Shown here: positions 21,335 to 64,000 of the stretch, piece by piece
Numbering within the stretch: the first letter of the stretch is position 1
Layout: every line of letters starts with the position of its first letter
NCBI GenBank assembly: GCA_900637705.1
Contig: LR134390.1
Coordinates: forward strand, 1,488,001-1,552,000
Reading direction: 5' to 3'
Length of the DNA stretch: 64,000 nucleotides
Source of the DNA: Fusobacterium varium
Lineage (GTDB): Bacteria; Fusobacteriota; Fusobacteriia; Fusobacteriales; Fusobacteriaceae
Translations under genes and position numbers: made by a program
The notes under the pieces: model-generated
Told to the model about the DNA's origin: nothing
Databases searched by the model: none
What the model saw: only the letters and a program-made list of their open reading frames with translations

Positions 21335-22279
21335 TTAGAATTTATATGTAAGCCCTAGAGAAACTACATAATTACTATTTTTAATACCTGATAAATTTTT
21401 AATACCATTGATTTTTTCTCCATCTTCAGTTATAAAATCAGTAGTTGATTTCTTTTTATGAAAATATTTAGAATACTCTACAGTTCCATTTATATCAATA
21501 GATGGAGTAATTGGATACTTAGCTACAAATTTAATCCCTAAATTTTTCATATTTTTATATTTTTCTTTATCTTCCATAGGTCCTCTTTCAAGATGTCTAT
21601 CTTTAGCCTTTGCTTTTCCATATAAACTACCTTTAACTTCAAAGCCTAAAACTAGTTTTTCATAAGTATATGAAACACCATATCCTATATATGGTGTAAA
21701 AAACTTTTGTGAATATTTTATACTTTTTTTCGAATAATCATCTTTCATGATATCAACAGAACCATCCAGTGAATAGTTATATTGATCTCCACCTTTAGCA
21801 TAAAATTTAAAATAATCATATTTAAATCCTAATATAGGTCCAGACTTTAAATTTTCACTATGATTAAACCAATATCTAATATTTGTATCAAACATAAAAA
21901 GATTATCTACATAGTTTTTATTGTCACTAAAGTTTGAAAGCTTCCCATAGTCATTCGGAGTAGCTCCATCTTCTGCATCATCAGACGAATACCAATCATA
22001 ATCTTTCATCCTTCCACTAGAATTAGAGCCAAAATTTTTCTTTAAACCAATTTGAAATTCCGTATTACCTTGTATATGTGTATAATCAACTATAAAAACT
22101 GGAATATTTTTAATTTTCCAATCTAAATAACTGACTTTTTCTCCTGTTTCTGGAACATAAACATATTCTCCTGCTTTACCATTAACAGTTCCCAAAGAAA
22201 AATTTAAAGTATTATTTGATTGTGCAAAAACTCCTGTTGAAATACAAGTAAATAAAATTAAAACTTCTTTTTTTAACAT
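21335..22279 (-). CDS. Omptin-family outer membrane protease
   Basis: A 314-residue beta-barrel protein: signal peptide to about residue 20 (STGVFAQ) and C-terminal aromatic LGLTYKF for barrel insertion. It aligns by eye to OmpT/Pla: KAGEYVYVPETGEKVSYLDW near the first strand, RYWF..., YFKFYAKGGDQYNYS (compare RYSFTARGGSYIYSS of OmpT) and FTPYIGYGVSYTYE. The omptin catalytic groups appear retained: an Asp pair in MKDYDWYSS (D93, D95) and the Asp-His pair in KAKDRHLE (D227, H229). It should cleave surface-accessible substrates, classically between basic residues. Monocistronic, GGAGG ribosome site, with three 21-bp-spaced repeats about 170-210 bases upstream. Confidence 0.82.
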   Translation of the reverse strand: MLKKEVLILFTCISTGVFAQSNNTLNFSLGTVNGKAGEYVYVPETGEKVSYLDWKIKNIPVFIVDYTHIQGNTEFQIGLKKNFGSNSSGRMKDYDWYSSDDAEDGATPNDYGKLSNFSDNKNYVDNLFMFDTNIRYWFNHSENLKSGPILGFKYDYFKFYAKGGDQYNYSLDGSVDIMKDDYSKKSIKYSQKFFTPYIGYGVSYTYEKLVLGFEVKGSLYGKAKAKDRHLERGPMEDKEKYKNMKNLGIKFVAKYPITPSIDINGTVEYSKYFHKKKSTTDFITEDGEKINGIKNLSGIKNSNYVVSLGLTYKF

Positions 22280-22447: not shown

Positions 22448-22495
22448 CACATTCTTTTATGTTACATGCACAAAAATAATTTTTATATACACAAA
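22448..22495. promoter_or_regulatory. Three direct repeats with 21-bp period upstream of omptin gene
   Basis: CACA/CACAAA cores start at 22448, 22469 and 22490, exactly 21 bases apart, each preceded by TA or TG. Read on the gene's strand the unit is roughly TTGTGyATrTA. The same triple is found upstream of the autotransporter operon at 41070-41117. The remainder of 22280-22543 is AT-rich without genes. Confidence 0.6.
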
Positions 22496-29401: not shown

Positions 29402-29692
29402 CTATTCTTTTACTTTTGTATTAAAACTTCTTTTTAAATTTTTTCCTTGTTTAAATGTAATCTTCTTCTGTGCTGGTATTTTTTCTATCTTTTTCGTTCT
29501 TGGATTGCTGAAGATTCTCTCTTTTGTTTCTTTCACTTCAAATTTACCCCAGCCTTTAAATTCAAGTTTTTCATTTGTCTTTAAAACATCAACTATCCCT
29601 TCCCAGAAAATATCTACTTTATTTTTTGCTATTTTCATACTTCTTAATTCTCTTTTTTCTTTTAATTCTTTTATAAATTCTATTTCTTTCAT
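29402..29692 (-). CDS. HU/IHF-family DNA-binding protein
   Basis: A 96-residue histone-like protein. The beta-arm region is visible as FKGWGKFEVKETKER, IFSNPRTKKIEKIP and then KKITFKQGKNLK, the usual HU dimerisation and minor-groove arm signature. The N-terminus is somewhat longer and more charged than standard HU. It follows two small DNA-binding genes downstream of the giant autotransporter (5-base gap to the previous one), so it is likely co-transcribed with them rather than a housekeeping HU. Confidence 0.85.
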   Translation of the reverse strand: MKEIEFIKELKEKRELRSMKIAKNKVDIFWEGIVDVLKTNEKLEFKGWGKFEVKETKERIFSNPRTKKIEKIPAQKKITFKQGKNLKRSFNTKVKE

Positions 29693-29697
29693 GGCTT

Positions 29698-29898
29698 CTA
29701 TCCTTTCGATTTATTTTCATCTTCTAATGCAAGTTTAAAAAGCTCTATTAATATTTCAGTATTATTTCTTTTCACACCATTAATTTCTCTTAAGGTTTTT
29801 AACTTATTTTTTATGAAAATATATTCTTTTTTTGTGAGCCAGCAACCATACAAACGATACCTCTGTTTATCACTCTCTTTCTTCTTTTCTATTTCCAT
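29698..29898 (-). CDS. Small basic DNA-binding-like protein (66 aa)
   Basis: Paralogous to the proteins at 29998, 54874 and 55912: shared pattern (R)xLGCxxTxKEYxxIKxxLKxLRE...NxxILIxLFK, here YRLYGCWLTKKEYIFIKNKL. The arrangement of a beta strand followed by two helices suggests a ribbon-helix-helix-like fold, though I cannot prove it. It lacks the N-terminal AT-hook of two paralogs. AGGAG precedes the ATG. Confidence 0.6.
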   Translation of the reverse strand: MEIEKKKESDKQRYRLYGCWLTKKEYIFIKNKLKTLREINGVKRNNTEILIELFKLALEDENKSKG

Positions 29899-29997
29899 AT
29901 ATTTCTCCTACAAAATTCTCTTTTAAACATCTATACTTTTTCTTGATAATAACTCTTATTTTAATATTTTTTCCCATATTAATATTTTTAATTTCAG

Positions 29998-30339
29998 TTA
30001 TATATTAAAAAGATTTTTTAATCCTTTAGTCTGAATTTCTTTATAAATTTTTTTCAACTGTATTTTTTCCTCTTTACTATAATTAATTTTATTTAATTCT
30101 TTGCTTATTAGTTCAAGAAGTAATTCTTCTAATTCTAGTTTGTTCACCATGTGGAATTTATTATATTTTTCAAAAAGATATATAAGTATTTTTTTATTAG
30201 TTTTAAATTTAGGTTTTAATTTGACAAGACCTTCTTTTACTATATTGTATTCTTCATAGCTGACTCTCATACCTAATATAGTTCTAACTTTGTTCCCACT
30301 TCCTAAGGGTCTTCCTCTTCTTTCTATTTTTTCATTCAT
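29998..30339 (-). CDS. AT-hook protein downstream of autotransporter 1
   Basis: A 113-residue basic protein. The N-terminal ERRGRPLGSGNK is a consensus AT-hook (RGRP core) that binds the minor groove of AT-rich DNA. It is followed by ILGMRVSYEEYNIVKEGL, a ribbon-helix-like element shared with paralogs at 55912, 29698 and 54874. The C-terminal third is an extra charged helix. It lies just after the autotransporter gene, separated by a hairpin. AAAGGTG ribosome site. Confidence 0.7.
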   Translation of the reverse strand: MNEKIERRGRPLGSGNKVRTILGMRVSYEEYNIVKEGLVKLKPKFKTNKKILIYLFEKYNKFHMVNKLELEELLLELISKELNKINYSKEEKIQLKKIYKEIQTKGLKNLFNI

Positions 30340-30392: not shown

Positions 30393-33300
30393 TTAAAATT
30401 TATAATTGAATCTTACACCATATTTAATTGATGAATCTTTTTTATGTGACTCATCTGCTGCTTCCACTTCAAATGTTACTCCCATGTGGTTGGCTTTCTC
30501 TACTGTCAGTCCTACTTTTCCTGATAGCTTTCCTTCTTTTTCATCTGGAGTAATCAGACTGTAATATCCTTCTCCTCCATTTTTAAGTCTTGCTTTGTTT
30601 CCATCATAGTTATCTCCAAGTTCATATGCATATTTTACATCTGCTGTTACTTTTACAGATACATCATTTACTACATAGACTCTCTGCTGAGCTTTTACTC
30701 CTGCTGCTGCCTGTGCGCTTAAGTAATCATTATCTTTAATTTGCACTTCAAGTCCACCTTTGCTTCCAGCACTTTCTTTAAAATCATCTACTTTTCCATA
30801 TTCTAAATTTAAGTCAGCATATACATCTAATTGTCTAGATAAATCTGTATAGATAGCTTTTGTTAATCTGTTATCAAGTGCTACAGAGTAAGTATTATAC
30901 TCTCCCTTATTTTCAAATGTTTCTTGAAGATTAAGTTTTCTCTTAGCAATATGTCTGTTGTATCCTAGTTCTATTCTTGATAACCATGATACTTTATGCT
31001 CATCACTTAGATTTTTAACTCTGTGTGCTCCTACTCTCAATGAATATACATCTTCTTTTGAACCACCATCATCAAAGTCAAATTTAGATCCAGCAAATCC
31101 TATTGTATATCCATACTTGCTTCCATACTCTGTTCCCTCTTTTTCTTTCATATATAGAAGTCCCATTACTTTGTAGTCATAGTCATCTATTCCTAAAGTA
31201 GAGTCCTTGTAGTTTCCATCAGTATAAATAACACTGTATTTACTGCTGTCTTTAGTTAGGTTGTATGATGATTCAAGTTCATAGAAAGAATTATTAAATG
31301 CCTGATTAATATCCTGCATTCTTCCTTGAATAGTTGCATAGATATCTCCTCTGAATTCAGCTAATTTTTTTGAAGCTTCCCCTGTAAATTTATTTTTTTC
31401 CATTCCTTCTAAATAATTGTTTAATCCTTTTAAGATTTCAGCATCTCTTCCATTTCCACCACTATTTCTTAAAACATTATCAAGTCCCTTATCCAAAGTA
31501 TCAAATTGTTTCCCAAGAGTTAAATCTGCATATGGTCTTTTAGCTATTACTAAATCTCCAGCATTTGTCACTTTTGCTATAAATAGAGGTGATGTTACAG
31601 GAGTAAATTTTGTTCCTGTTATTGTTTTGATAGCTGTATTTACAAATCCTTTTATTTCATATGAAATACCATTTCCTGTAAGTGTAAAATTAGGTAGTAA
31701 TCTTATCTCTCCACTTACACTACGTGCATTAAACAGAGGTGTTTTAGTTGTTACATCTACATATGCTCCATTAACAATTACATTTCCAACAGTTGAGAGA
31801 GTTCCTCCAATAGCAGTATATTTATCATTAATCAGTATAGTTCCATCTGGCTGTATTACTACTGCTCCTACTCTTGCAGCTGTAACATTACTTGAGTCTT
31901 CCGTTTTTCCTTTTCCTGTTACTATTATATTTCCTGTATTAGTAACATTTCCTATACCTTCAATACCTGTTCCATTCTTTACATATATTGTCCCTTTATT
32001 AATTAGATTTGCTTGAGTACCTACCAGCATTCCTACACCTTCATTAACAGTTATTATTCCTCTGTTTTCTATTGTAGCTCCTGCATATGCTGCCATACCT
32101 ATTGTTCTATTTCCACTTGATACTAAAGTTCCACCTAAATTGATATTACCATTAGTTTCATTTATTGCTGTAGCTCCATCTCTTACCAGAACTCCTACTC
32201 CACCATTATCTATATTTATTATTCCTTTGTTTGTAAAACTAGTTCCTTCACCTTGTCCATATATTCCTACTGAATATTCATGGTTTACTGTTATTGTTCC
32301 AGAACTTGTTGCCATAGTTCCTCCTGACAAATACATTCCTATTGAATTCTCATGTTTTGTTTTGTCATTAGGTTCTCCATTTACATTTGTACTTCCTACA
32401 GTTATAGTTCCTGTATTTGTAACTCTATTTGCTCCTTCTGAATAAACACCTACAGCTGACATTCCTAATGTTATATTTGCTTTATTTTCAATTAATGCTG
32501 ATTCTCCTGCTGTTTGTTTTAAATAGATTCCATATCCACTATTTCCTACTGTCCAGTTTCCTGCTGATGTAGTTATAGTTCCTCTTCCATCTATCTTATA
32601 GATTCCAACTGATGCTCTCTCAGTTTTATTAGCTATTATCATGTTTCCTGTATATGTTATATCTCCATTACCTTCACTTGCAATACCTATACTTGTATCA
32701 GCACCAATTCCCATATTTCCTGTTACTACTGAGTCCATTCCTTTAGCATATACTCCTATTGCATCACCTGATTCTACTGTAATGTTTGACATATTAGCAG
32801 TTATTGTTCCTCCAGTTCCTTCACCATAGATTCCCACTCCCTCTGTTCCAACAGACATTCTCTCTGTTCCAGTTCCTTGGGTAATTATACTTCCAGGTGC
32901 CATTCCTTTTCCAAAAACACCTATACTGTAGTTTCCTGCTGAAAGATTTCCACTTCCTGTATATGAACCACCATTTAAAACAACTCCTATTGATGATATT
33001 GATTTATCTTCTGATATTGGAGAATCCCCAACTAAAAGATTTCCTCTAGTTGTAATTTGGCTCTCTTCTCCATATATACCTATATTTTTATTTCCTTTTA
33101 CTGAAATATCACCTGTTATTACCAAATTAGAGTTATCTTTTGCCATTACTCCTACTTGATTATTTTCAGTAGCACTTCCAATAGAGATTCCTCCTGCTGT
33201 ACTTCCTGCTGAGTTATTCAATACCATTCCAATAGTATAGTTTCCTGTTTGAGTTATTGTTGGTACTGCCCCAAGTGCTGCTACTCCATCATAATAAATT

Positions 33301-36300
33301 CCCATAGAATACTTAACTGATGTTCCACTTTGTACATTTATTGCAGTTGCTCCAAATGTTGGTGCTGCTCCTTTTACATAGGCTCCTATTCCACCATTTT
33401 GAACTGTTATAGCTGATGCTCCTACAGCATTGATAGTTCCACCATCTGCTACTATTCCTATTTGGTTATCAGCTGTAATATTTCCACTGAAATTTAATGT
33501 AGCACCTTTAGAATACATATATATTCCATCTGCTCCTACTGTAATATTAGCTGTATTCCCAACTGTTACTGTCGTTCCAGCTCCCTCAGCATATACTCCT
33601 ATTCCCTTATTTCCAGTTGTAATTGTTGCTGTTCCTGCCATAGTCATATCTGCCCCATTTTGAGCTACTATTCCTATTGCACTTTTTGATGCACTTCCTT
33701 CACCTGTTGTAATTGTTCCATCTATTGTGGAAACTGCTGTTCCTGTTGCAAATACTCCTACACTTTCATTTCCTAAGTTAACAGTTCCTACATTTATATT
33801 CCCTGATGTTCCCTCTAGAACTACTCCTGTATTTCTTGAACCTGTTGAAGTTATATTATTTGCAGTAAGTCCATTTGTTGCTCCTTTAATATATACTCCT
33901 ATTCCATCTGTTCCTGTCATATTCATATTATTATTTTGTACAGAAGTAAGCACACCATTGTGAGCTGAATATATTCCAATTCCATTACTTCCTACATTTA
34001 TATTTCCTGTATTTGCTACATCTGCTACATCTGTATAGATTCCTATTGATGGTGTATTTGTACTTGATTTTCCAGATGCATTGATTGTTCCTGTATTATT
34101 TATTGTTACTGGAAAGCCAGGATTTGTTCCTCCTTTTACTGCTGCCAGTCCTATTCCTCCAGATACAGCTGTTATTGTACCAGAGTTATTTACACTGTGT
34201 GCTGCTGTAAGTCCTGAATCATATAGCCCCATAAGTCCTGTTGCGCCTTCTCCTACGTTTAGAGTTCCTGAAGAGCTTAGGCTTCCATTTGTTGTTGCTG
34301 CTAGTGAACCTGACCCTATCACATTTATATTTGCTCCAAGATTCATTGTTCCCCCATTATTGAATACTCCTATTCCTCCACCTGCTAAGAAGTTGAATTT
34401 AAGGTTTCCTCCAGTTCCTAAATTAGCTATTCCACCTTTTATATATACTCCTGTTCCTCCATTTATATTAAGCACAGTTGTATTAGTTGTAAGAGTAGTT
34501 CCATTGTCTACATAGATACCTATTCCTCCTACTGTATTTATTGTTCCACTATGAGTAAGATTTGTTCCTGGTGTAGTTCCATCTAAATAAATTCCTACTC
34601 CATTTTGAGCATTTACAGTTACATTACTCATTGTATATGCTCCTAATGCACTCTTCAAAAGAATTCCTATTGAAGATTTTAATGGAGTTCCTGTTTTTGT
34701 ACCTGTTGCTATATTTGCTCCATTAAAAGTTACACTATTATCTAGAACATATACTCCTACTGAGTCCTGTCCTGTTGTTATATTTCCTGATATTACTGAA
34801 GTTCCTTTAGCTACAACTCCTACTGCTCCTCCAGAATTTGATGTATCAACTGTAAAATCTATCTTGGAATTTTCTCCAAATACTCCAACTCCTCCTGAAG
34901 CTATGTTTAAAGTTCCTGTTTTTATTTTATTTGCTTCAGTATTTTTAAGATACATTCCTACTTTATTTGAATTAATTGTTCCTCCAGTTCCATCAAAACT
35001 GTTAGTAGAGCCATCTACATATACTCCTGTTCCTGTTGTAGTAGTTATTGTTCCTGCATTTTTACCTGAGTTTGTTCCAGCTCCTCCTATATACATTCCA
35101 AGATTAGCACCTGCTGTGATTGTTCCCCCAGCTGCATTTTCCACTGCTGCAGTTTTTCCAGCTTTAGCTCCAGCAACCATTCCTACAACTGATTTATTTA
35201 ATCCACTTGGTGCTCCATTCATCAGTATAGTTCCTGAGTTTTCTCCTTTACCTTCTTCTGTATATATTCCTATGCTGTCACTATCATTCATTGTAATAGT
35301 TCCTGTTGAAGTTAACTGAGAACCTTCTCCTACATATGAACCAATATTTTCTGATTTTCCTGCTGTCGATGTAATATTAGAATTATTTACTAAAGTTATC
35401 CCATCTGCTGCATATATTCCAATGCTTTCACTACCAGTCAGAGAAATATCTGAGCTATTTGTCACTGTTCCAGAAGCAGTTCCCTTGCTGTAATATATTC
35501 CTATATTTTTAGTTCCTGCTGCTGTATTATTTACAGTTATTGTTCCTCCAGTTGCAGAAGCTCCATCAGCTAAATACATTCCTGTTCCTCTTCCTGTATC
35601 AGTATTAAGAGTCAGTCCTCCTGCTCCTACAGTCACAGCTCCTCCACTTCCATATATTCCTACTGCATTTCCTCTTGCTGTTACACTTCCTGTTATTTCA
35701 GAAGCCCCATCTATAAATATACCTGTAGTCTTATTTCCAGTTACTGTTACATTCACATCTAGATTATTATTTCCTTTAGAATAAAGTCCTACAGCTTCAT
35801 TTACAACATTCAGCTTTCCTGTTGTATTACTTATAAATCTGCTTCCTGTTCCAGCATTTTCAAGATAGATTCCTACTGTTTTATTTCCTGTTGATGAAAT
35901 AACTTCTCCATCTATAGTTATTGTTTTATTTGCTTTTATTCCAATAGTTGCATCTTTTCCATATACAAATATATTTTTATTTTCATTTGCATTTTTTAGT
36001 GTTACATTTTCTACAAAATCCACTAAAGCTTTTTCAGCAAATATCCCTATACTTGATTTTCCACCAAATCTAATATTACTTCTATCATCAAGTTCAGTTT
36101 TAGCTCCTCCCTTGATATATATTCCTGTTGTACCATCAGCATTAAGATTTATAGTTCCCTTGTTTATAACTTGACTATTTATTCCTTCAGCATACATTCC
36201 TATTTGAGAGGCTTCATTTACATTAATAACTCCAGCTGCATTATTAACAATATGAGCTGTTTTAGTGTACATACCTACAGCTCCAGTTTTACCTGCACCT

Positions 36301-39300
36301 AAAGTAATATTTCCCTCATTATATCCAGAATTAGTTTCTGTCCCTTTAACATATATTCCGATTCCAGCAGTTCCAATATTTAAAGCTCCTTTTGAAGTGA
36401 TATTCATATTTTCACTATATACTGCTGTTCCATTATCTAAATCTGATATATCAATATTCACTTTTATTTCTTTAGAAGTGTTTCCTTCTCCTTTGTAGAA
36501 AATTACAGTTTTTCCAAGAGTTCCTATCCCATTTGAAGTAACCCTTACATCAGTTGCAGTAAGGTCTGATGTTCCATCTAACATTACTCCAATTCCATCT
36601 GCTCCAAGATTAAGAGTTCCAAGAGCTTTTATTTCAGAATTATTTTTAGCATATATTGCAATTCCATTATTTCCTACTGAAATAATTCCTAAATTTGATA
36701 TTGTAGTTTTATCTCCATATATACCAATAGCTGCATTTGTAGCTGTTGAACTTCCTACATCAATTATTCCATTAATATCATTACTAACTTTAGAATCTGC
36801 TTTGGTTCCAGCTACATTGTTGTTATATGCATATATACCTATAGTTCCAGTTCCACCTAAACCTATATATTTATTATTAACAATATTTATTTTTCCCTGC
36901 TCAGCAAAAATTCCTCCTGCTCCAAATTCATTTACAATAGGAGTTTCTGCTGGTTGTTCTCTATATGCCATTCCTAAAATACCTATAGCCTGATTTCCTT
37001 TTACTTCTATATCCCCTGCATTTGACACTGTACTTCCATTTACTGCATATACTCCTATTGCTTTATCATTAACAGTATTAGCACCTTTTTCAACTTCTAC
37101 TTTTGCACCTGCTGCAATATCTATTTTACCAAAGTTCATATAAAGACCAATTGCTCCTGCACCTGCATCTGTTCTGTCTGCTATTACTTTAGATCCTGCT
37201 GCAAGATTTATTTGAGCATCTGTTGCACTTCCTGCTGCCTTACTTGAATTCATTTCAAGTCCTACTACCTGTCCCTTAAAATATGTTGATGCATCTGAAC
37301 TGTTGATTTCTGATTTTACTTCTACTCCATTAAGAACATTGAGTTTAAGTCTTTGACCTAAAAATCTTCTGTAATAGAAAAATCCTGGTGAAGTAGTGGA
37401 AGTATCTGTTTTGTCCATGTTAGCATTGATATTTAAAATTCCTCCATCTACAGCTGCTATTTTATACTTATCAAATACTTGAGTTCCATTTGTTCCAGCA
37501 ACTATATTTACTCCACCTAATTTATTTTCTATATCTGTTTTAAGTGTTCCTATATTTAAAGTTCCTATATTCTTAAGATTAACTCCTACTGCATCATTAG
37601 ACATTACTACAATTTTAGCTCCAGTCAAAGTTATCGGATTAGAAGAAGGAGTACTTAAATCCAATTCAAGACCTGTAGCTTTTCCTCTCAGAATTATTTC
37701 TCCATTTGATAAATTAACAGTTCCTCCATTTGAAGTATAAACAGCATATCCATCTCCACTATAATCAACTATACCTCCTGACAAGTCTATATTTGAATTA
37801 CTTCCTGTTGCTACTGCCCCTACTGTTCCATCTTTTACTTTAACATAAGTGTTTTTAACACTGATTTTTCCACCATCACTTGCATAAATTCCTAAACCTG
37901 ATGTACTTCCATCAGCTTGTATTTTTCCTTCTACATATATATTGGCTGGAGTAGTTGGCTCAGAAATATTTCCATTAGCATCTGGCTGAGAAAGTGTCAA
38001 AGAAGTTCTGTCTGTTATAATACTTCCTTGATTTGTAGCAAATAGTCCTGTACTATTTCCTGATAAATTCAAACTCAATTTATCTTTTTCTATATTTATA
38101 ACTGTTCCACTATTCTTAGCATATATAGCAACTGTATCTTCAATTTTTTTAGTATCCTTTCCTGCTATTACATCGCCTTTCATAGTTATTGTTTTTCCAT
38201 TTTGTGCAATTGCTATCTGATTGTTTTTTCCACCTTCTATTAAAATATCTCCATCAAACTTTACATCTCCACCTTGAGCAATTATTCCAATATTTCCTTC
38301 TCCACCAGATATTTTTACACTGCTCTTTTCTGCTGGATTTCCATATGGTTTTAAAATTTCAATTGTTCCATTTTTCCCAAATATTCCTATTCCACCATAA
38401 GAATGCTCTCCTATTTCTATTTGAGCTGCTGTTTTTGTTGTACTTGAGTTATCCATCAGTATTCCAATAGCTTGCTCTACTAGATTAGGGTCATTTGCTC
38501 TTGCAGAACCATCAGGATTAGTAAAAATACTATTTATAGAGTTTCCTTTTTCTATAGCTTGTTTTTTACTTCCAATATTGAACTTCACTATATTTTTTCA
38601 TTTGTTATATTTGTATTTTGTGCAACCAGACCAACACTTTTATCTCCTAATAATTCAATTGGTTTTTTTATATATGCTGTATGTCCAATATGAAAAGGAC
38701 TATTGTCTGACATATACAGAGCTATTGCCTCTGCTCCTCTTATTTCAGCGATTCCCTCATTTACAAATGCAGCTCTGTTATAAGGTAAATTTCTATAAAC
38801 CCATTGCATCAATGAAGCTCCTATTCCATCTACATATATTTTTCCAGTTGGTCCATTTGAATAGATATATGCTTTTGCTTCTTGTGTATCTGGAGAATGC
38901 ATATATACAGCTGATTTATCTCCATTGACAATAATTGTTCCTTCATTATCTAAATAATTAGTTCTAAGACCTCCATTTGTATGTGATGTTGTGAAAAAAT
39001 ATGCTGAGTTTGTTCCATTTATATCTACTTTCCCTTTATTGACAAACAAAAGCTCAGTATTATTATTACCTTTAATTCCACTATATGTCTGATACTCTCT
39101 CAATCTGTCACGTGTTTCTGAAGTTATAAGCCCTTCTGCTACTCTATTGTCTAAATTACCATTTACTATTCCTTCAGTTTCAAGATCAATAAGTTTAGCA
39201 TGATTTGAATTAAAAACTATTTTTGTATTTTCTCCATAATATGAATATGGTACATTTAATAAAGTATGAAAAAAGTTTTTATTTACAGTATATGTTCCAT

Positions 39301-40360
39301 TTGCTGGTTTATTACCTTGAGGATTTGTTCCAGCAAATGCTTCAGCATCATATCCTGTTACTCCCACACTATAATTTCCTGAGCTTCCATTTATAATATA
39401 CTCTCCAGATTTTAAACTTATTTGAGAGATTACCCCATCATTTCCGTCCCACCAATAGTATCTTACTGTTGGGTTTGCTCCACTTCCAGTTATTGATGGA
39501 GATGAAACATTCACTGGTACTACTACTGGTAGTGAAGGTGCTGTTGGAAGTTTTATTATTGTTGGGTTATACCCCTCAGGCAAAGTTGGATTAGTTACTT
39601 TTACATTCTTTTCAGATGGAACAGTTGGTGTTTTTATAACTGGAGTTGCTACTGTTATTTTTTCTACTGGATTTGGTGTTGACAGTTCTACTGATACTTC
39701 ATTTGGTGCTAATGGAGTTGAAATAACTGGTGCTATCACTGTTGGTACTGAAGCTACCACTGGATTTATTGTTTTAGGTAATGTCCCTAAAATAACTATT
39801 GGTGCTGATGCTGTTACTGAAACATTGGGATTTACTTTTGGTAAATCTGGCTGTATTAATTTTATATTAGCTCCAATTTCTACTGTTTCTCTGAATACAG
39901 TGTCATCAACACTAACTCCATTTCCCTCTTGTATCTTAACAATTCCTGAATCTTTCCCTAGTTTATAATATTTATCTACGGCATCTATTGTTTCTTTAAA
40001 TTCTTTATCTGTTACATCTTTCATCTTCCCATTATCTAAATATTGATAACTGAAAAAAACTTGTGTGCTTGGAGCTAAGGGTTTTGAATAAAAATCTCCT
40101 TTTCTTATAAGCTCTACAAAATCTGAATTATATTTTTTTATTAACTTTTCATTTTCTATTATCTTCTTTTTTATTTCTTCTCTTTCTATTTGTATCTTTT
40201 TCAACAATTCATTTTTATTTTCTTGTATTTCTTCAGTTGTTATTCCTGTGGCTAATGAAATTTCACCAGTTATCATAAATACTACTAGCAATGATAAAGA
40301 ATAACCAATTTTTCTCTTCAAAAATCTCTTCAAAGCTTTTTCAACATTATTTTTTTTCAT
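30393..40360 (-). CDS. Giant type Va autotransporter adhesin (one frameshift at 38597)
   Basis: About 3,322 residues. The N-terminus (MKKNNVEKALKRFLKRKIGY...) is an extended fusobacterial autotransporter signal peptide. A coiled-coil and a Pro/Val/Thr-rich segment (~185-270) follow, then a very long passenger of short repeats built around GIGIY/GVGIY turns, typical of a right-handed beta-helix. The last ~280 residues form the outer-membrane barrel, ending FNYKF. The reading frame is interrupted near 38597 where GAAAAAATATAG needs one more A; with it the gene is exactly 3,323 codons, so the two visible frames (590 and 2,731 residues) are one protein. GGGAG precedes the ATG. Confidence 0.88.
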
Positions 40361-40377: not shown

Positions 40378-40971
40378 TTAATTTCCTGCTTTTACTTTTT
40401 CTTCCATTCTATCTAGTCTACTCAAGTATTCTTTAAGTTTTTCATTTTCTAATAAAAGTATTTCAAGTTCATTATTATTAGATTTAAATTCATCATAAAC
40501 TTTATCAAACTTCTGTCCTAAAAATACATCTCTGTTTGCATCTTCTATTCCTAAAGATTTTTCAAGTTCCATAATTTCCTTTTCTTCTGCCTTTAAAAAT
40601 GCCATTCTTTCCCTTCCTATTTCAAAGGCCTTTTCTGCAGCTACCATTCTTGCTTCAGGGTTATTTTCACTTCTAAAAACTTTTTCCTCTAGAGATTCAT
40701 TCATATCTCTTCTAATCTCTTCAAGTATTTTCTTCCCCTTTTTTTCTTCTGCCTTCTCAGCACTTATTTTTGCTTTCTCCTCTGCTGCTTTGATTTTTTC
40801 TGCTTCTCTAGCAGCTCTGGCTTTTTCTTTTTCTTCCAATTGAACTTCTTTTCTTATTTGTTTAAGAACTCTCATTCCCTCTTTTTCACTTATCTCTTGT
40901 GAGTAAGTAGAAACATAGAAAACAGAGAAACTAAAAAAAAGAAATATAAATAATAATTTTTTTCGTTTCAT
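40378..40971 (-). CDS. Secreted coiled-coil protein upstream of autotransporter 1
   Basis: A 197-residue protein: signal peptide (MKRKKLLFIFLFFSFSVFYV...TYS) and then almost continuous charged coiled coil rich in KAxEEKA repeats. It ends 17 bases before the autotransporter start, so it is the first gene of that operon. It could be a FadA-like filament or a periplasmic helper, but it lacks the FYKxQYQ motif of FadA. AGGAG ribosome site. Confidence 0.75.
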   Translation of the reverse strand: MKRKKLLFIFLFFSFSVFYVSTYSQEISEKEGMRVLKQIRKEVQLEEKEKARAAREAEKIKAAEEKAKISAEKAEEKKGKKILEEIRRDMNESLEEKVFRSENNPEARMVAAEKAFEIGRERMAFLKAEEKEIMELEKSLGIEDANRDVFLGQKFDKVYDEFKSNNNELEILLLENEKLKEYLSRLDRMEEKVKAGN

Positions 40972-41069
40972 AAATTATCTCTCCTTAATTGTTTTTATGT
41001 AATCTTTAAATAGAACTTTTTATCTATATAAATACTATAATTTATTTTTTCTTTTATTTTTTGTATATA

Positions 41070-41117
41070 CACAAATTCTATTATTGTATGCACAAAATAT
41101 AATATTACATACACAAT
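41070..41117. promoter_or_regulatory. Three direct repeats with 21-bp period upstream of autotransporter operon
   Basis: CACAA cores at 41070, 41091 and 41112, exactly 21 bases apart, with TATA/TATG/CATA flanks. They lie 100-145 bases upstream of the secreted coiled-coil gene, in the divergent region 40972-41395. Same motif and spacing as 22448-22495. Confidence 0.6.
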
Positions 41118-54884: not shown

Positions 54885-55069
54885 CTAATTTATAAATTTT
54901 TACTACTTCACCATACTCTTTAAGTAATTTAAAAAGTATTACACTATTTGACATATCTTGTTTTTTCTTCAATTTTTTTAATTTTTTATTTATATATTTA
55001 AAATCCTCTTCGATAAAACAACAACCAAATAGTCTGTAAGTTTTTCTACTTCTTTATCAACTATTTCAT
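54874..55069 (-). pseudogene. Small DNA-binding-like protein paralog, two frameshifts
   Basis: The main frame reads TYRLFGCCFIEEDFKYINKK..., matching the 66-residue protein at 29698 (YRLYGCWLTKKEYIFIKNK). To join the ATG at 55069 to this frame, one A must be added in AAATAG and one in GAAGTAG; the gene is then exactly 66 codons. It starts 10 bases after fadA. It lacks an AT-hook. Confidence 0.5.
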
Positions 55070-55079
55070 AGTATCACTC

Positions 55080-55441
55080 TTACTTTATTGCTTCAAATAT
55101 ACTGATTATTTCTTCCTGCTTCCTCATATCTGCCTCAAGTTCCTTTTTAGCCTCACCATATTTTTTTGCTAATTCCTGATATTGTCCTTTATAAAACTTA
55201 TTATCTTTTACACTTAATATTCTTTTTTCTTTCTCTGATATCTCTGCATACATTTTTCTTTGAGCTTCTAATGTTTTTTCTGCCTCTTCTGCCTCAGCTT
55301 TTCTTTGATTGTACATTGCTCTTTCCTCTGCTTCTAATTGTTGAAGATTAAGTTCAAGCTGCTCCAATGTAGACATTACATCTGTTGCTGAATATGATAC
55401 TGCTGATACTGCCAGAAGACACCCTATTATTATTTTTTCAT
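55080..55441 (-). CDS. fadA: FadA-type adhesin, one frameshift in the signal peptide
   Basis: A 120-residue FadA-family adhesin: signal peptide (MKK then IIIGCLLAVSAVSYSAT) and a helical hairpin with KFYKGQYQELAKKYGEAKKE, matching FYKSQYQELASKYEDALKKL of F. nucleatum FadA, and the IISIFEAIK end. FadA forms filaments and binds host cadherins in F. nucleatum. After ATGAAAAAA one A is missing; with it the gene is exactly 121 codons. Start ATG 55441 follows AGGGGAT. Third gene after the second autotransporter. Confidence 0.85.
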
Positions 55442-55463
55442 CTTATCCCCTTTTAGTTTTTCT

Positions 55464-55894
55464 TTATTTATTTTCCTCTTCTTTTTCGCTGATTCTTCTA
55501 CCTTTATATACTCTTTTAATACATCGTTTATCTTGTACTTCTCAACTATTTCATTTATTACCTTTACTTTTTCTTCTCCAAGTTTTTGATTAAATAGCGC
55601 CTGTTGAACTTGTGGATATACTTCCACTGTATTTTTATCCTTTAATAGTTCTGCATTGTTTTTGTATACTTCTAATAATTCATAGTCATGTATTTGAACT
55701 GTTTTTTGAGCTATTGAATTAAGATAAAATTCTATCTCCATATTAAGTTTCATTTCTTCAAGATACTTTTTTTCCTCTTCTGTATATTCTTTTTTTCCCA
55801 TTTCTTCAAGGATAGCTTTTCTCACTAAAAGTTGTGCAATTGCATCTTTATTTTCCCCTAAAGTTTCTAATTCCTTTTTTGTTAATTTTATCAT
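55464..55894 (-). CDS. Chaperone-like helical protein (SurA/PrsA N-domain-like), one frameshift
   Basis: About 143 residues, fully helical. KKELETLGENKDAIAQLLVRKAILEEM followed by YKNNAELLKDKNTVEVYPQV and LFNQKLGEEKVKVINEIVEKY resembles the N-terminal helical region of SurA/PrsA-type proteins. No signal peptide is visible, which is odd for a periplasmic chaperone. Without correction it runs into the fadA start as 154 residues; adding one A in the AAAAAG run (about 55490) makes it end at 55464 and gives exactly 144 codons. Sits between the AT-hook gene and fadA. Confidence 0.6.
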
Positions 55895-55911: not shown

Positions 55912-56133
55912 TTATACTTTTATTTTCTTTTTATTATCTTTTCCATCTAAGTATTTTCCATATTTTTTAAAAAGATTTAAAATTATCTTATTATTTGTTC
56001 CATATTCCTCTTTTAAACTTTTGAAACTTTCTTGAATTAATAAGTATTCTTTTTCAGTGAAGCGACACCCAAGGGCACAATAATTTTTTACTCCACTTCC
56101 TAAAGGACGACCTCTTTTTCTTTTTTCTACCAT
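55912..56133 (-). CDS. AT-hook protein downstream of autotransporter 2
   Basis: A 73-residue basic protein: KRKRGRPLGSGVKNYCALG at the N-terminus is an AT-hook; CRFTEKEYLLIQESFKSLKEE is the shared ribbon-helix-like element. It parallels the 29998-30339 gene, which lies at the same position behind autotransporter 1. It begins the small operon with the chaperone-like gene and fadA (17-base gap). Its ribosome site (AAAAGAGG) is adequate. Confidence 0.7.
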   Translation of the reverse strand: MVEKRKRGRPLGSGVKNYCALGCRFTEKEYLLIQESFKSLKEEYGTNNKIILNLFKKYGKYLDGKDNKKKIKV

Positions 56134-56327: not shown

Positions 56328-59300
56328 TTAGAATTTGTAATTGAATCTTACACCATATTTGATAGATGAATCTTTTTTATGTGATTCATCTGCTGCTTCC
56401 ACTTCAAATGTTACTCCCATATGGTTGGCTTTCTCCACTGTCAGTCCTACTTTTCCTGATAGTTTTCCTTCTCTCTCTTCTGGAGTGATTAGACTATAAT
56501 ATCCTTCTTCTCCATTTTTAAGTCTTGCTTTGTTTCCATCATAGTTATCTCCGAATTCATATGCATATTTTACATCTGCTGTTACTTTTACAGATATATC
56601 ATTTCCTGCATAAATTCTTTGTGATGCTTTTACTCCTGCTGCTGCCTGTGCGCTTAAGTAATCATTATCTTTAATTTGTACTTCAAGTCCACCTTTGCTT
56701 CCAGCATGCTCTTTAAAGTCATCTACTTTTCCATATTCTAAATCTAAATCAGCATATACATCTAATTGTCTAGATAAATCTGTATAGATAACTTTTGTAA
56801 GTTTGTTGTCAAATGCTACAGAGTAAGTATTATACTCTCCTTTATTTTCAAATGTTTCTTGAAGATTAAGTTTTCTCTTAGCAATATGTCTGTTGTATCC
56901 TAGTTCTATTCTTGATAACCATGATACTTTATGCTCATCACTTAGATTTTTAACTCTGTGAGCTCCTACTCTCAATGAGTATACATCTTCTTTTGATCCA
57001 CCATCATCAAAGTCAAATTTAGATCCAGCGAATCCTATTGTATATCCATACTTGCTTCCATACTCTGTTCCCTCTTTTTCTTTCATATATAGAAGTCCCA
57101 TTACTTTGTAGTCATAGTCGTCTATTCCTAAAGTAGAATCCTTGTAGTTTCCATCAGTATAGATAACACTGTATTTACTGCTGTCTTTAGTCAGGTTGTA
57201 TGATGATTCAAGTTCATAGAAAGAATTATTAAATGCCTGATTAATATCCTGCATTCTTCCTTGAATAGTTGCATAGATATCTCCTCTGAATTCAGCTAAT
57301 TTCAATGATGTTTCTCTTTCAAATTGATCTGCTGGAAGACCTTCTAAGTATTCATTTAATCCTTTCAAAATATCAGCATCTCTTCCACTTCCACCACTAT
57401 TTTTAAGAATATTATCCAATCCTTTATCCATTGCATCAAATTGTTCCCCTATTGTCAAGTCTGCATATGGTCTTTTTGCAATAACAAGGCTTCCTTTATC
57501 TGTAATTTTAGCAATAAATAGAGGTGATGTTACAGGAGTAAGTTTAGTTCCTGTTATTGTTCCTAATGCTGTATTTACAAATCCTTCCATTTCATATGAA
57601 ATACCATTTCCTGTTGAAGCAAAGTTTGGAAGCAGTCTTACTTCTCCACTTACACTATGTGCATTAAATAGAGGTGTTCCTGTTGTTGCATCTACATATG
57701 CTCCATCAACTATTATATCTCCTGCTGTAGAAAGTGTTCCTCCTATAGCTGTATACTGGTCGTTAATCAATATAGTTCCATCTGGTTTTATTGTTACTAC
57801 TCCTACTTCAGCCGTAGCTAAACCACTTGAATCTTCACCTGTTGCTCCTGGTGCTACATTCATTGTTCCAGTGTTAGTAATATGTCCTGTTCCTGTTATT
57901 CCAACTCCATTATTAACATTTAAAGTTCCTGTATTTATTAGATTTGCCTGATTTCCAACAACCATTCCTGCTCCAGAATTTATTGTTATAATACCATTAT
58001 TTTCTATTGTACTTCCAGGACCAGATGCAGACATTCCTACATTGACAGCCCCACATATAGGTGAAGCATTTCCTCCTAATGTAATAACTCCTTCATTTAC
58101 AGCTATTGCTCCATTTCTTACAATAACTCCAACTCCACCATTATCTACATCAATTATTCCATAGTTCTCAAAACGAGTTTTATCTCCAGTAATTATATTA
58201 CTTCCATCAACATACACACCAACAGAGTGATCTTCATGAACTTTTATTGTAGCTCCTGCTGCATTGAAGATTTTTGTTCCACCTGCTCCATAGATTCCAA
58301 CTGAGTTTAAATGCTTTGTTGGATCAGAATGATTTGAAGGTCCTCCCTCTACATAAGTTTCTCCTACAGTTATATTTCCAGAATTATTTACTGTATTAGC
58401 TCCATTAGAGAATATTCCTACAGATGACATACCTAAATTCATATCAGCACTATTATTGATTGTTGCAGAATTAGAAGTCATAGTTGTTGATATTTCTTTC
58501 CCTGCTGCATCTACAGTTACTATAGCCTGTTGTACATAGATTCCATATCCACTGTTTCCTACTGACCAGTTTCCTCCTGATGTAGTTATAGTTCCTGATC
58601 CCAGTTTCTTATAGATTCCTACTGATGCTGTATCATCTTTTCCAGTTCCCTTATCATCTATTGTTATAGCTCCAGTATATGTTATATTTCCAGTTCCTTC
58701 ACTTGCAATACCAACACTTGTATTTGCACCAATTCCCATGTTTCCTGTTACTACTGAATCCATTCCTTTGGCATATACTCCTATTGCATTACCTGTTCCT
58801 ACTGTAATGTTTGACATGTTAGCAGTTATTGTTCCTCCAGTTCCTTCTCCATAGATTCCAACTCCTTCTGTTCCAACAGCCATTGTTTCTGTTCCAGTTC
58901 CTTGAGTAATTACACTTCCAGGTGCCATTTTTTTTCCAAAAACACCTATACTGTAGTTTCCTGCTGAAAGATTTCCACTTCCTGTATATGAACCACCACT
59001 TAAAACAACCCCTATTGATGAAGAGGCTTTATTTATACATAATGAAGAATTTCCAACTGCTACATTACCATTTACAGTAATTATACTATTTTCTCCATAT
59101 ATACCAATATTATTATCTCCTCCACTTATATTTACTGTTCCTGCTACTGTAAGGTTAGAGTTTCCTTTTGCCATTACTCCTACTTGATTAGATGTTCCAG
59201 CACCTCCAATAGAAATTCCTCCTGCTGTAGTTCCTGTTGAACTATTAAGTGCCATTCCCAGAGTATAGCTTCCTGATTGTGTTATTACAGGTGCAGTTCC

Positions 59301-62300
59301 TATAGAAGATACTCCGTCATAGTAAACTCCCATAGAATATATAGAAGATGTTCCTGTTTGTACATCTATTGTTGTTGTTCCAAATGCTGGTGCTGCTCCT
59401 TTTACATAGGCTCCTACTCCTCCATTTTGAACTGTTATTGTTGAAGCTCCCATAACATTAATAGTTCCACCTTCTGCTACTATTCCTGTTTGATTGTTTG
59501 CTGTAATATTTCCACTGAAATTTAATGTAGCACCTTTAGAATACATATATATTCCAGTTGCTCCTACTGAAATATTTCCTGCATTTGAAACTGTTGCTGT
59601 TGTTGATGCTCCTTCAGCATATACTCCTATTCCCTTATTTCCAGTTGTAATTGTTGCTGTTCCTGCCATAGTCATATCTGCTCCATTTTGAGCTACTATT
59701 CCTATTGCACTTTTTGATGCACTTCCTTCACCTGTTGAAATTGTCCCATCTATTGTGGAAACTGCTGTTCCTGTTGCAAATACTCCTACACTTTCATTTC
59801 CTAAGTTAACAGTTCCTACATTTATATTTCCTGCTGTTCCCTCTAGAACTACTCCTGTATTTCTTGAACTTGTTGAGTTTATATTATTTGCAGTAAGTCC
59901 ATTTGTTGCTCCTTTAATATATACTCCTATTCCATCTGTTCCTGTCATATTCATATTATTATTTTGTACAGAAGTAAGCACACCATTGTGAGCTGAATAT
60001 ATTCCAATTCCATTACTTCCTACATTTATATTTCCTGTATTTGCTACATCTGCTACATCTGTATAGATTCCTATTGATGGTGTATTTGTACTTGATTTTC
60101 CAGATGCATTGATTGTTCCTGTATTATTTATTGTTACTGGAAAGCCAGGATTTGTTCCTCCTTTTACTGCTGCCAGTCCTATTCCTCCAGATACAGCTGT
60201 TATTGTACCAGAGTTATTTACACTGTGTGCTGCTGCCAGTCCTGAATCATATAGCCCCATAAGTCCTGTTGCGCCTTCTCCTATGTTTAGAGTTCCTGAA
60301 GAACTTAGGCTTCCATTTGTTGTTGCTGCTAGTGAACCTGACCCTGTTACATTTATATTTGCTCCAAGATTCATTGTTCCACCATTATTGAATACTCCTA
60401 TTCCTCCACCTGCTAGGAAATTAAATGTCAAACTTCCTATTGTTCCAAGATTAGCAGTTCCTCCATCTACATATACCCCTGTTCCTCCATTTATGTTAAG
60501 TACAGTTGTATTAGTTGTAAGAGTAGTTCCATTGTCTACATAGATACCTATTCCTCCTACTGTATTTATTGTTCCACTATGAGTAAGATTTGTTCCTGGT
60601 GTAGTTCCATCTAAATAAATTCCTACTCCATCTTGAGCATTTACAGTTACATTACTCATTGTATATGTCCCTAATGCACTCTTCAAAAGAATTCCTATTG
60701 AAGATTTTAATGGAAGTCCTGATTTTGTACCTGTTGTTATATTTGCCCCATTAAAAGTTACACTATTATCAAGAACATATACTCCTACCGAATCCTGTCC
60801 TGTTGTTGTAATATTTCCTGATATTACAGAATTAGTTTTTGCTGCAACTCCTACTGCTTCTACTCCTGAAACATTTACTACAAAGTCAATATTTGCATTT
60901 TCTCCAAATACTCCTACTCCTCCTGAAGCTATATTGAAAGTTCCTGCTGTTATTTTATTCACTCCAGTATTTTTCAGATACATTCCTACTGCATTTGAAT
61001 TAATTGTTCCTCCAGTTCCATCAAAGCTGTTAGTAGAACCATCTACATATACTCCTGTTCCTGTTGTAGTAGTTATTGTTCCTGCATTTTTTCCTGAACT
61101 TGTTCCAGTTCCTCCTACATACATTCCAAGATTAGCCCCTGCTGTGATTGTTCCCCCAGCTGCATTTTCTGCAACAGCAGTTTTTCCTGTCTGAGTTTCA
61201 GCAGCCATTCCTACAACTGATTTACTTAAAGAACTAGCTGTTCCATTCATTGCAATAGCACCAGAATTAATTCCTCTTCCTTCTTCTACATATATTCCTA
61301 TACTGTCATCATCATTCATTGTAATAGTTCCTGTTGAAGTTAATTGAGAACCTCCTCCTACATATGAACCAATATTTTCAGATTTTCCTGCTACTGATGT
61401 AATATTAGAATTATTTACTAAAGTTATTCCATCTGCTGCATATATTCCTATACTTTCATTGTTGGCAATACTAATTACTGAACCATTTGTTACAGTTCCT
61501 GATGCAGTTCCTTTACTGTAATAAACTCCTATATTTTTAGTTCCAGCAACTGTATTATTTACAGTTATTGTTCCTCCTGTTGCAGAAGCTCCATCTGTAA
61601 GATACATTCCTGTTCCTCTTCCAGAATTAGTATTAAGAACAAGTCCTCCTGTATCTATAGTTACAGCTCCTCCACTTCCATATACTCCTACTGCTCCTGC
61701 AGTTGCTGTTCCTGTAGCAGCTACTGTTCCTGATATAATTGATGTTCCATCAATAAATATACCAGTTGTTTTATCTCCTGCTGCTGTTACATCAACATTT
61801 AAAGTATTATTTCCCTTAGAATATATACCTACTGCTTCATTTGTAACATTAAGCTTTCCTGTTCCATTAAATGTACTTCCAGTACTAACATTTTCAAGAT
61901 AAATCCCAACAGTTTTATTTCCAGGTGTTGTTGGTGTTCCCACTCCATCTATTGTTACAGTTTTACCTGAATCTATTCCTACTGTTGCATCTTTCCCATA
62001 TACAAAGATATTTTTATTTTCATTTGTACTTGTAAGAGTCTGGTTATCTTTAAAGTTTACAGATGAATTTTCAGCGAAAACTCCTACACTGGATTTTCCA
62101 TCAAACACTATTTTATTTCCAGTATTAAGTTCAGTTACAGCACCTGCTTTAACATATATTCCTGTAGTTCCATCTACCTTAAGGTTGATTGTACCTTGAT
62201 TTATTGCTTTAACCCCTGATCCTTCTGCATACATTCCTATTTGTGAAGCATCATTTACATTGATTATTCCTGTTGTAGTATCATTAAGGATATTAGCTGT

Positions 62301-64000
62301 TTTAGTATACATTCCAACAGCTCCTGTCTTCCCTGTTCCTAAAGTTATAGTTCCTGTATTAGTTCCTGTATTAGTACTACTTCCTTTAATATATATTCCT
62401 ACTCCAGAAGTTCCTATACTTAATGCTCCTGATGATGAAACACTCATATCTTCTGCATATATAGCAGTTCCTTTATCTAAAGCTAAAGCATTTACAGCTA
62501 CACCAATATTTTTAGTTTCTCCACCAGTTCCTTTATAGTAGATAGCAGTTTTTCCAAGTGTTCCAGTATTATTTGAAGTTACTGTTACAGTAGTTGCACT
62601 AAGGTCTGATGTTCCATCAAGCATTACTCCAACTCCATCTGCACCAAGATCAAGAATACCAAGACTTGCAACTTTAGTTTTATTTTTAGCATATATTGCT
62701 ACTCCACCATCTCCTACTGATACTTTTCCCTGATTAGAAATAGTCGCTTTATCTCCATAAATACCTATTGCCGCATTTGAAGCATCTGAGCTTCCAACTT
62801 TTATTTCTCCAGTTGCTGTATTTGTTACAGTAACATCTGCTTCTGTTCCTAAAGTATTGTTGTTATATGCATAAATACCAATACTTCCTTTTCCATCAAG
62901 AGTTATTTTACTGCTGTTAGTAATATCAGCTTTTCCTTGAGCAGTAAAAATACCTCCAGTTCCAAATTCATTAACTAGTGGTGTTCCTATAGGTTGTTCT
63001 CTATATGCCATTCCTAGAATACCTATAGATTGATCTCCTCCTACTTCAATACTTCCATTGTTTAATACTGTACTTCCATTTACGGCATAAACTCCTACTG
63101 CTTTATTACTTCCACCATATATCTTTCCTACTTCTACTTTAGCTCCACCAGCTATATCTACTTTACCAAAGTTCATGTAAAGTCCAATAGCTCCATTTCC
63201 AGCATCTACTCTATCTACTGATACTTCAGAGTTAGCCAGCAGATTAATTTGTGCATCTGTTGCACTTGTTGCTGCCTTACTTGAACTCATTTCTAGTCCA
63301 ACTATCTGATTATTAAAATATGCTGTAGCATAAGTAGTATCTGTTAAACTTAATACTTTAACTCCCATATCCACTGTCAACTTAAGTCTTTGTCCCAAAA
63401 ATCTTCTAGAATAGAAATATCCAGTAGTAGTTTCATTTTGATTATATTTAGACATATCATCATCAATAGTTAAATCTCCACCATCAACAGTAGCTATCTT
63501 ATATTTGTCAAATGTATTTATTCCATCAAATCCATTTGCTATTGATACTCCTGATCCTAAATTTGTTTCCACTGTGCTTTTTAAATTACTAGTAAGAAGA
63601 CCAGTAGCATTTTTTAAATTTGCTACTGTAGCATCATTTGACATCATTGTGATTGTTGTATTATTCATTGTTACTTTTGGAGATAACAGGTCAAGTTCTA
63701 CTCCTGTTGCTTTTCCTGAAAGTTCTAAATTGGCATTAGTCAAATTGATTGTTCCATTTCCATCTGAATATGCAGCATATCCTTCTCCAGAATATTTCAA
63801 TTCTGCCCCTGTAAGATTAATACTAGTCCCAGCTCCAAAGGCTGCTACTCCTGCTGCTCCATTTTTTACATCTATCTTGGCAGCTCCTAAATTTACTGCT
63901 GCTCCACCTTCTGCATATACAGCTAATCCTCTTGTTGCTGGATTTGATGTATCATCAACTGAAATAGTCAAAGCATTTCCAGAAGTTGATGTAATTGTTC
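56328..64000 (-). CDS. Second giant type Va autotransporter adhesin (5' end beyond window)
   Basis: At least 2,557 residues, open to the window edge. Architecture equals autotransporter 1: GIGIY/GVGIY-rich beta-helix passenger, then the barrel. The barrel (from about FNNSFYELESSYNLTKD to FNYKF, ~300 residues) and long passenger stretches (for example 59530-60640 versus 33500-34615) are nearly identical to the first at DNA level, while other passenger parts differ. No frame breaks in 7.7 kb. The signal peptide is outside the window. Confidence 0.9.
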   Translation of the reverse strand, partial: TITSTSGNALTISVDDTSNPATRGLAVYAEGGAAVNLGAAKIDVKNGAAGVAAFGAGTSINLTGAELKYSGEGYAAYSDGNGTINLTNANLELSGKATGVELDLLSPKVTMNNTTITMMSNDATVANLKNATGLLTSNLKSTVETNLGSGVSIANGFDGINTFDKYKIATVDGGDLTIDDDMSKYNQNETTTGYFYSRRFLGQRLKLTVDMGVKVLSLTDTTYATAYFNNQIVGLEMSSSKAATSATDAQINLLANSEVSVDRVDAGNGAIGLYMNFGKVDIAGGAKVEVGKIYGGSNKAVGVYAVNGSTVLNNGSIEVGGDQSIGILGMAYREQPIGTPLVNEFGTGGIFTAQGKADITNSSKITLDGKGSIGIYAYNNNTLGTEADVTVTNTATGEIKVGSSDASNAAIGIYGDKATISNQGKVSVGDGGVAIYAKNKTKVASLGILDLGADGVGVMLDGTSDLSATTVTVTSNNTGTLGKTAIYYKGTGGETKNIGVAVNALALDKGTAIYAEDMSVSSSGALSIGTSGVGIYIKGSSTNTGTNTGTITLGTGKTGAVGMYTKTANILNDTTTGIINVNDASQIGMYAEGSGVKAINQGTINLKVDGTTGIYVKAGAVTELNTGNKIVFDGKSSVGVFAENSSVNFKDNQTLTSTNENKNIFVYGKDATVGIDSGKTVTIDGVGTPTTPGNKTVGIYLENVSTGSTFNGTGKLNVTNEAVGIYSKGNNTLNVDVTAAGDKTTGIFIDGTSIISGTVAATGTATAGAVGVYGSGGAVTIDTGGLVLNTNSGRGTGMYLTDGASATGGTITVNNTVAGTKNIGVYYSKGTASGTVTNGSVISIANNESIGIYAADGITLVNNSNITSVAGKSENIGSYVGGGSQLTSTGTITMNDDDSIGIYVEEGRGINSGAIAMNGTASSLSKSVVGMAAETQTGKTAVAENAAGGTITAGANLGMYVGGTGTSSGKNAGTITTTTGTGVYVDGSTNSFDGTGGTINSNAVGMYLKNTGVNKITAGTFNIASGGVGVFGENANIDFVVNVSGVEAVGVAAKTNSVISGNITTTGQDSVGVYVLDNSVTFNGANITTGTKSGLPLKSSIGILLKSALGTYTMSNVTVNAQDGVGIYLDGTTPGTNLTHSGTINTVGGIGIYVDNGTTLTTNTTVLNINGGTGVYVDGGTANLGTIGSLTFNFLAGGGIGVFNNGGTMNLGANINVTGSGSLAATTNGSLSSSGTLNIGEGATGLMGLYDSGLAAAHSVNNSGTITAVSGGIGLAAVKGGTNPGFPVTINNTGTINASGKSSTNTPSIGIYTDVADVANTGNINVGSNGIGIYSAHNGVLTSVQNNNMNMTGTDGIGVYIKGATNGLTANNINSTSSRNTGVVLEGTAGNINVGTVNLGNESVGVFATGTAVSTIDGTISTGEGSASKSAIGIVAQNGADMTMAGTATITTGNKGIGVYAEGASTTATVSNAGNISVGATGIYMYSKGATLNFSGNITANNQTGIVAEGGTINVMGASTITVQNGGVGAYVKGAAPAFGTTTIDVQTGTSSIYSMGVYYDGVSSIGTAPVITQSGSYTLGMALNSSTGTTAGGISIGGAGTSNQVGVMAKGNSNLTVAGTVNISGGDNNIGIYGENSIITVNGNVAVGNSSLCINKASSSIGVVLSGGSYTGSGNLSAGNYSIGVFGKKMAPGSVITQGTGTETMAVGTEGVGIYGEGTGGTITANMSNITVGTGNAIGVYAKGMDSVVTGNMGIGANTSVGIASEGTGNITYTGAITIDDKGTGKDDTASVGIYKKLGSGTITTSGGNWSVGNSGYGIYVQQAIVTVDAAGKEISTTMTSNSATINNSADMNLGMSSVGIFSNGANTVNNSGNITVGETYVEGGPSNHSDPTKHLNSVGIYGAGGTKIFNAAGATIKVHEDHSVGVYVDGSNIITGDKTRFENYGIIDVDNGGVGVIVRNGAIAVNEGVITLGGNASPICGAVNVGMSASGPGSTIENNGIITINSGAGMVVGNQANLINTGTLNVNNGVGITGTGHITNTGTMNVAPGATGEDSSGLATAEVGVVTIKPDGTILINDQYTAIGGTLSTAGDIIVDGAYVDATTGTPLFNAHSVSGEVRLLPNFASTGNGISYEMEGFVNTALGTITGTKLTPVTSPLFIAKITDKGSLVIAKRPYADLTIGEQFDAMDKGLDNILKNSGGSGRDADILKGLNEYLEGLPADQFERETSLKLAEFRGDIYATIQGRMQDINQAFNNSFYELESSYNLTKDSSKYSVIYTDGNYKDSTLGIDDYDYKVMGLLYMKEKEGTEYGSKYGYTIGFAGSKFDFDDGGSKEDVYSLRVGAHRVKNLSDEHKVSWLSRIELGYNRHIAKRKLNLQETFENKGEYNTYSVAFDNKLTKVIYTDLSRQLDVYADLDLEYGKVDDFKEHAGSKGGLEVQIKDNDYLSAQAAAGVKASQRIYAGNDISVKVTADVKYAYEFGDNYDGNKARLKNGEEGYYSLITPEEREGKLSGKVGLTVEKANHMGVTFEVEAADESHKKDSSIKYGVRFNYKF

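Follow-up and report, generated by a model that had tools for sequence, protein, structure and literature searches.

Why are genes for small DNA-binding proteins placed directly behind giant adhesin genes in Fusobacterium varium? The question was raised by a stretch of 64,000 nucleotides (contig LR134390.1, positions 1,488,001 to 1,552,000; hereafter the window, with coordinates counted from its first letter) in a genome of 3.30 Mb assembled as a single contig. An original prediction, made from the letters of this stretch, placed an AT-hook protein, a hookless paralog and an HU-like protein behind autotransporter 1 and in its direction. Three open reading frames (ORFs) were found in that order 3' of the autotransporter gene and on the same strand:

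29998–30339, minus strand: AT-hook protein, 113 aa, with an RGRPLGSG motif, a strand-helix-helix core resembling that of ribbon-helix-helix (RHH) proteins, and C-terminal helices
29698–29898, minus strand: hookless paralog of the AT-hook protein, 66 aa, assigned by profile and alignment
29402–29692, minus strand: HU-family protein (PF00216) of the A class, without a B partner, 96 aa

The reading favoured here, with a probability of about 0.58, is that these genes make up the 3' portion of adhesin operons and code for proteins that regulate the very operons containing them. It is supported by their same-strand placement right behind the adhesin gene, by recurrence at many loci, by a cassette order that stays the same and is seen on plasmids too, by purifying selection, by an HU expansion confined to this lineage, and by a separate HU-A clade for loci of the RadD/FadA type.

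A profile search of four complete Fusobacterium genomes yielded an AT-hook clade of 28 genes, all 28 of which lay in adhesin loci. The predicted coupling of nucleoid-type proteins to giant adhesin genes was thus strongly supported, and the scatter of AT-hook genes that would have spoken against it was not seen in these genomes. On the same strand behind a RadD-type barrel, 23 of the 28 were located, 19 of them at a distance of 57–90 bp. Four further genes, one in each genome of the comparison, followed directly after an orthologous orphan FadA gene at a site without an autotransporter. The last one (G009:2928447) lay between the usual upstream operon gene and protein X, with the autotransporter missing; its neighbourhood matched an intact locus at G000:27306. 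A scan of named genomes for the hook returned two chance-like matches, spanning the hook motif only. Pairing of AT-hook and adhesin genes is the rule in these large-genome Fusobacterium species.

The trio is part of a longer cassette and not a self-contained unit. The full order is autotransporter, hook, X (about 150 aa), FadA, hookless gene and HU gene, with parts absent at some loci. Cassettes were also present on both plasmids of F. varium Fv113-g1, where the hook is annotated as "hypothetical protein" and HU as "putative DNA-binding protein". Within the window, the same AT-hook type was found again behind autotransporter 2, as had been predicted:

56328–63971, minus strand: part of autotransporter 2 inside the window; the gene runs past the window end
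55912–56133, minus strand: AT-hook protein of locus 2, 73 aa, an AT-hook relative (E 8.5e-10)
55430–55894, minus strand: protein X, 154 aa, without a family match
55080–55376, minus strand: FadA-family protein, 98-aa ORF (PF09403, E 7.5e-19)
54901–55044, minus strand: remnant of the hookless gene behind FadA, with a broken frame

The FadA ORF of this locus has a shorter N terminus than its 120-aa paralog behind the autotransporter at G000:2828088, which has a signal-like start.

The HU protein of the window matched PF00216 with E 5.8e-20 and 71.8 bits (curated cut-off 22.4), and its membership in the HU family is certain. Against the IHF equivalog models it scored 45 and 41 bits, not reaching the cut-offs of 111 and 115. 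For the AT-hook and hookless proteins, the profile search gave no Pfam match over cut-off. The hookless protein was found by the AT-hook profile at E 2.5e-4 and could be aligned with the AT-hook family, of which it is, judged by sequence, a distant paralog.

The HU family was strongly expanded. PF00216 copies numbered 48 in the genome of the window, 55–58 in G008–G010 and 15 in G011, compared with 1–8 in the other 93 of 98 Fusobacteriota genomes. In other genera, genomes rich in autotransporters held 1–3 HU genes, and the idea that any autotransporter-rich genome needs many HUs was therefore rejected. In the genome of the window, 21 of the 48 HU genes followed the barrel of an autotransporter at no more than 1 kb, in most cases as pairs with a fixed spacing. 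Linkage to autotransporters was seen for 12 of 29 HU clusters, against 0.47 expected and a maximum of 5 across 20,000 random placements. In other genomes, at least 20 small autotransporters had an HU gene within 1 kb, and at least 28 of 84 HUs were linked to autotransporters.

Most of the extra HUs were A/B pairs, many of them directly behind a second (small) autotransporter family. Other HU genes lay a short way 5' of an autotransporter, or followed a FadA pair, a long gene resembling an autotransporter, or genes reading like bactofilin and surface-polysaccharide functions (names taken from reading the sequences). In a simple HU tree, three groups were distinguished: housekeeping HUs, an A class (the first gene of pairs, with the window HU included) and a B class (the second gene). 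HUs of RadD/FadA-type loci formed their own clade within the A class (support 99/92); many copies were near-identical and some were broken. The A/B pair of the second autotransporter family is probably an IHF-like heterodimer. Many loci of the small autotransporters (L062, L063, L064, L067, L117, L123) also had in common an upstream leader, about 250 bp long, whose sequence was strongly conserved.

RGRPLGSG was present in 22 of 24 aligned AT-hook members, with G, R and LGSG invariant and the RGRP (GRP) core flanked by basic residues; from this motif, minor-groove binding of AT-rich DNA is predicted. The DNA-intercalating arm proline was invariant in the HU alignment. The ratio of non-synonymous to synonymous substitution rates (dN/dS), likewise obtained by simple tests, was mostly 0.1–0.5 for close hook pairs, with an overall hook median of 0.44 that includes saturated comparisons between classes; the medians of the HU A and B classes were 0.31. 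Both the hook and the HU proteins are under purifying selection.

Structure models of the hook proteins, of modest confidence, gave the succession strand, helix, helix, as in ribbon-helix-helix proteins. A NikA-like Pfam match occurred in 2 of the 24 members (E 0.019, below any cut-off), and structure searches with the models returned no match to a solved RHH or other structure; the proteins are therefore termed RHH-like only.

How the trio would be expressed is suggested by the layout of the autotransporter 1 operon:

41061–41117, minus strand: three copies of a direct repeat (TTGTGYATRTA-like), spaced at 21 bp and lying 5' of the operon, a candidate operator
40378–40971, minus strand: first gene of the operon, 197 aa, of a kind that precedes many RadD-type autotransporters
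38588–40360, minus strand: N-terminal part of autotransporter 1, 590 aa, with a RadD-like N terminus (NF033175 over cut-off)
30393–38588, minus strand: C-terminal part of autotransporter 1 with the beta-barrel, 2731 aa
30356–30388, minus strand: hairpin that separates the stop codon of autotransporter 1 from the AT-hook gene

The N terminus scored 99.7 bits with NF033175, the fusobacterial autotransporter N-terminal domain (cut-off 55), which marks the protein as RadD-type; with the RadD equivalog NF049908, for which the N-terminal piece alone was scored, 248 bits were obtained against a cut-off of 3500. The gene is split into two ORFs in this assembly by a frameshift near a short A tract (38540–38640), which may reflect phase variation, decay or an assembly error, indistinguishable here.

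From the autotransporter stop codon to the hook gene, the space is taken up by the hairpin and a ribosome-binding site, as at most hook loci, and the hook is for this reason most simply read from the adhesin mRNA. Compensatory changes were found in 10 of 11 pairs of the hairpin. A covarying hairpin follows the stop codon at most RadD-type loci, mostly without a clear T run; since it also occurs behind autotransporters that have no hook gene, it is not specific to the hook.

Under the favoured reading, the hook, hookless and HU proteins would all be made from the adhesin mRNA. The AT-hook and HU proteins would bind and bend the AT-rich control region, and the RHH-like core would supply sequence specificity. 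Together, the proteins would determine, through local DNA architecture, how strongly their own operon and perhaps a few further surface genes are expressed; at the second autotransporter family, the HU A/B pair would do the same job. Expression data from Fv113-g1 are indirectly consistent with this: in D-MEM, two autotransporters were induced together with two FadAs located three locus tags from them (PMC5720691), and in a tentative mapping by tag spacing and genome position these loci fit the hook cassettes at G010:1792831 and G010:3680563.

A site of action may be represented by the 21-bp-spaced repeats, a candidate operator by its sequence. The array was kept in two other species, and in 1.46 Mb of fetched sequence the sole other doublet lay at 22460–22495 of the window, upstream of an omptin-family gene (21335–22279). 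The motif was derived from the array itself, and the evidence for the array is therefore the omptin doublet together with its cross-species conservation. A TTGTRTGTA-like box near the promoter was seen repeatedly, both at loci that have a hook and at loci that lack one, and the window does not contain it.

Several observations weigh against the favoured reading. The hook is missing behind about half of the RadD-type autotransporters. Apart from a single locus type, the repeat array is seen only before the omptin-family gene, and no operator common to all cassettes was found. The RHH fold of the hooks is deduced from secondary structure in the modest-confidence models, and the structure searches described above were empty.

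Other explanations were weighed against this background. The proteins could instead form a trans-acting pool, in which interchangeable hook and HU nucleoid proteins cover the AT-rich promoters of numerous surface genes across the genome, in an H-NS-like manner, and the position behind adhesins merely couples their amount to adhesin expression. AT-hook and HU proteins are generic binders of AT-rich DNA, the upstream DNA has a GC content of 14%, near-identical HU copies are numerous, and the repeat array stands at two separate surface genes. However, the autotransporter genes are not AT-rich, and the hooks of the two neighbouring loci in the window share only about 47% identity while the HU subclades track locus type; this divergence and this tracking suggest locus specificity, and a common pool is considered rather unlikely. 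The original prediction had spoken of very AT-rich loci, a description that fits only the upstream region, because the autotransporter genes (33–35% GC) are GC-richer than the window as a whole (27.9%). Silencing of AT-rich genes, one of its proposed roles, is weakened by this composition.

Assistance in gene conversion or rearrangement among repeated autotransporter genes was kept as a candidate because autotransporters 1 and 2 are mosaic: when 30393–40360 was compared with autotransporter 2, islands of 97–100% DNA identity stood in surroundings of 55–80%, which on sequence is the mark of recombination between copies. HU/IHF proteins assist recombination in general. Nevertheless, the same hook stands behind FadA without an autotransporter in all four genomes, HU pairs also lie behind non-repeated genes and the cassette carries no recombinase, all of which make such a function very improbable. 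The cassettes did not share the mosaicism: the barrels are 96% identical in protein, the two hooks about 47%; this fits regulators kept locus-specific, short of proof. It is also improbable that the genes are passengers, brought in by mobile elements and duplicated whenever adhesin genes were, with no role in adhesin control, since purifying selection acts across divergent copies and proteins of three distinct types are repeatedly found with adhesins of differing type. For this origin speak the broken copies, the plasmid-borne cassettes, one of which almost exactly matches a chromosomal copy, and distant hook relatives in other Fusobacteriota, in a prophage-like region and beside ParA/ParB; another such relative is chromosomal, beside a response-regulator-like gene. 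The phage collection held no match to the hook clade, and a phage origin is thus without support; recruitment of hooks from mobile elements is plausible. Copy maintenance, also proposed originally, was not borne out, as the cassette contains no gene that looks like one for partition or replication. Among the roles considered, control of expression fits best.

A more far-reaching form of the operon-regulator reading can be offered tentatively. Each adhesin operon might possess a private chromosome-architecture set, either an AT-hook protein with HU-A or an HU A/B pair. The specificity of each set would have diverged along with its operon, and dozens of such local chromatin switches might choose which adhesins are displayed. 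HU is normally a housekeeping protein present in few copies, and here about 50 HU genes, many paired behind adhesins, accompany a dedicated AT-hook family. If the reading is true, this would be a natural case of HU proteins becoming locus-specific regulators, and it would open to experiment the question of how gut fusobacteria select from dozens of adhesins.

Two side observations concern related genes. At L089:7557-8508, two adjacent genes with a hook-family core were found, one of them fused to a larger domain (226 aa), with relatives in other large genomes. At L019:1516-2016, a 166-aa RHH-looking protein with no Pfam match over cut-off is encoded immediately before the first gene of a different RadD-type operon; some RadD-type operons may thus have an additional regulator at their 5' end.

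No description of DNA-binding genes embedded in adhesin operons was found in the open-access papers that were searched. Regulation by the trio would best be likened to that by HU PG0121 of Porphyromonas gingivalis, which is co-transcribed with the K-antigen capsule operon and required for its expression (PMC3969353). In both cases, an HU gene borders an operon for a surface structure and shares its orientation; in P. gingivalis it is one HU gene at one operon, whereas here dozens of HU genes, falling into an A and a B class, stand at adhesin genes together with those for AT-hook and hookless proteins. The two diverged HU-fold classes encoded as partners resemble IHF alpha/beta, but the A/B genes are adjacent, with many pairs per genome, their heterodimer is predicted, and the window HU scores far below the IHF cut-offs. 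With NikA-like and other ribbon-helix-helix proteins the hooks share the predicted strand-helix-helix core, and they differ in matching below any cut-off, in their N-terminal AT-hook and in their tie to adhesins.

The type V secretion system (T5SS)/FadA neighbourhoods described in Fv113-g1 are the same loci, with FadA paralogs beside autotransporters, some of them co-induced; the main text of that report (PMC5720691) uses the term "DNA-binding" 0 times and does not mention the DNA-binding proteins between and behind the adhesins. The RadD operon of F. nucleatum (rapA, rapB, fad-I, radD; PMC7023056) likewise combines a giant RadD-type autotransporter with small FadA-related genes. It comprises four genes and was described without DNA-binding proteins, whereas in the operons analysed here such proteins are encoded 3' of the autotransporter.
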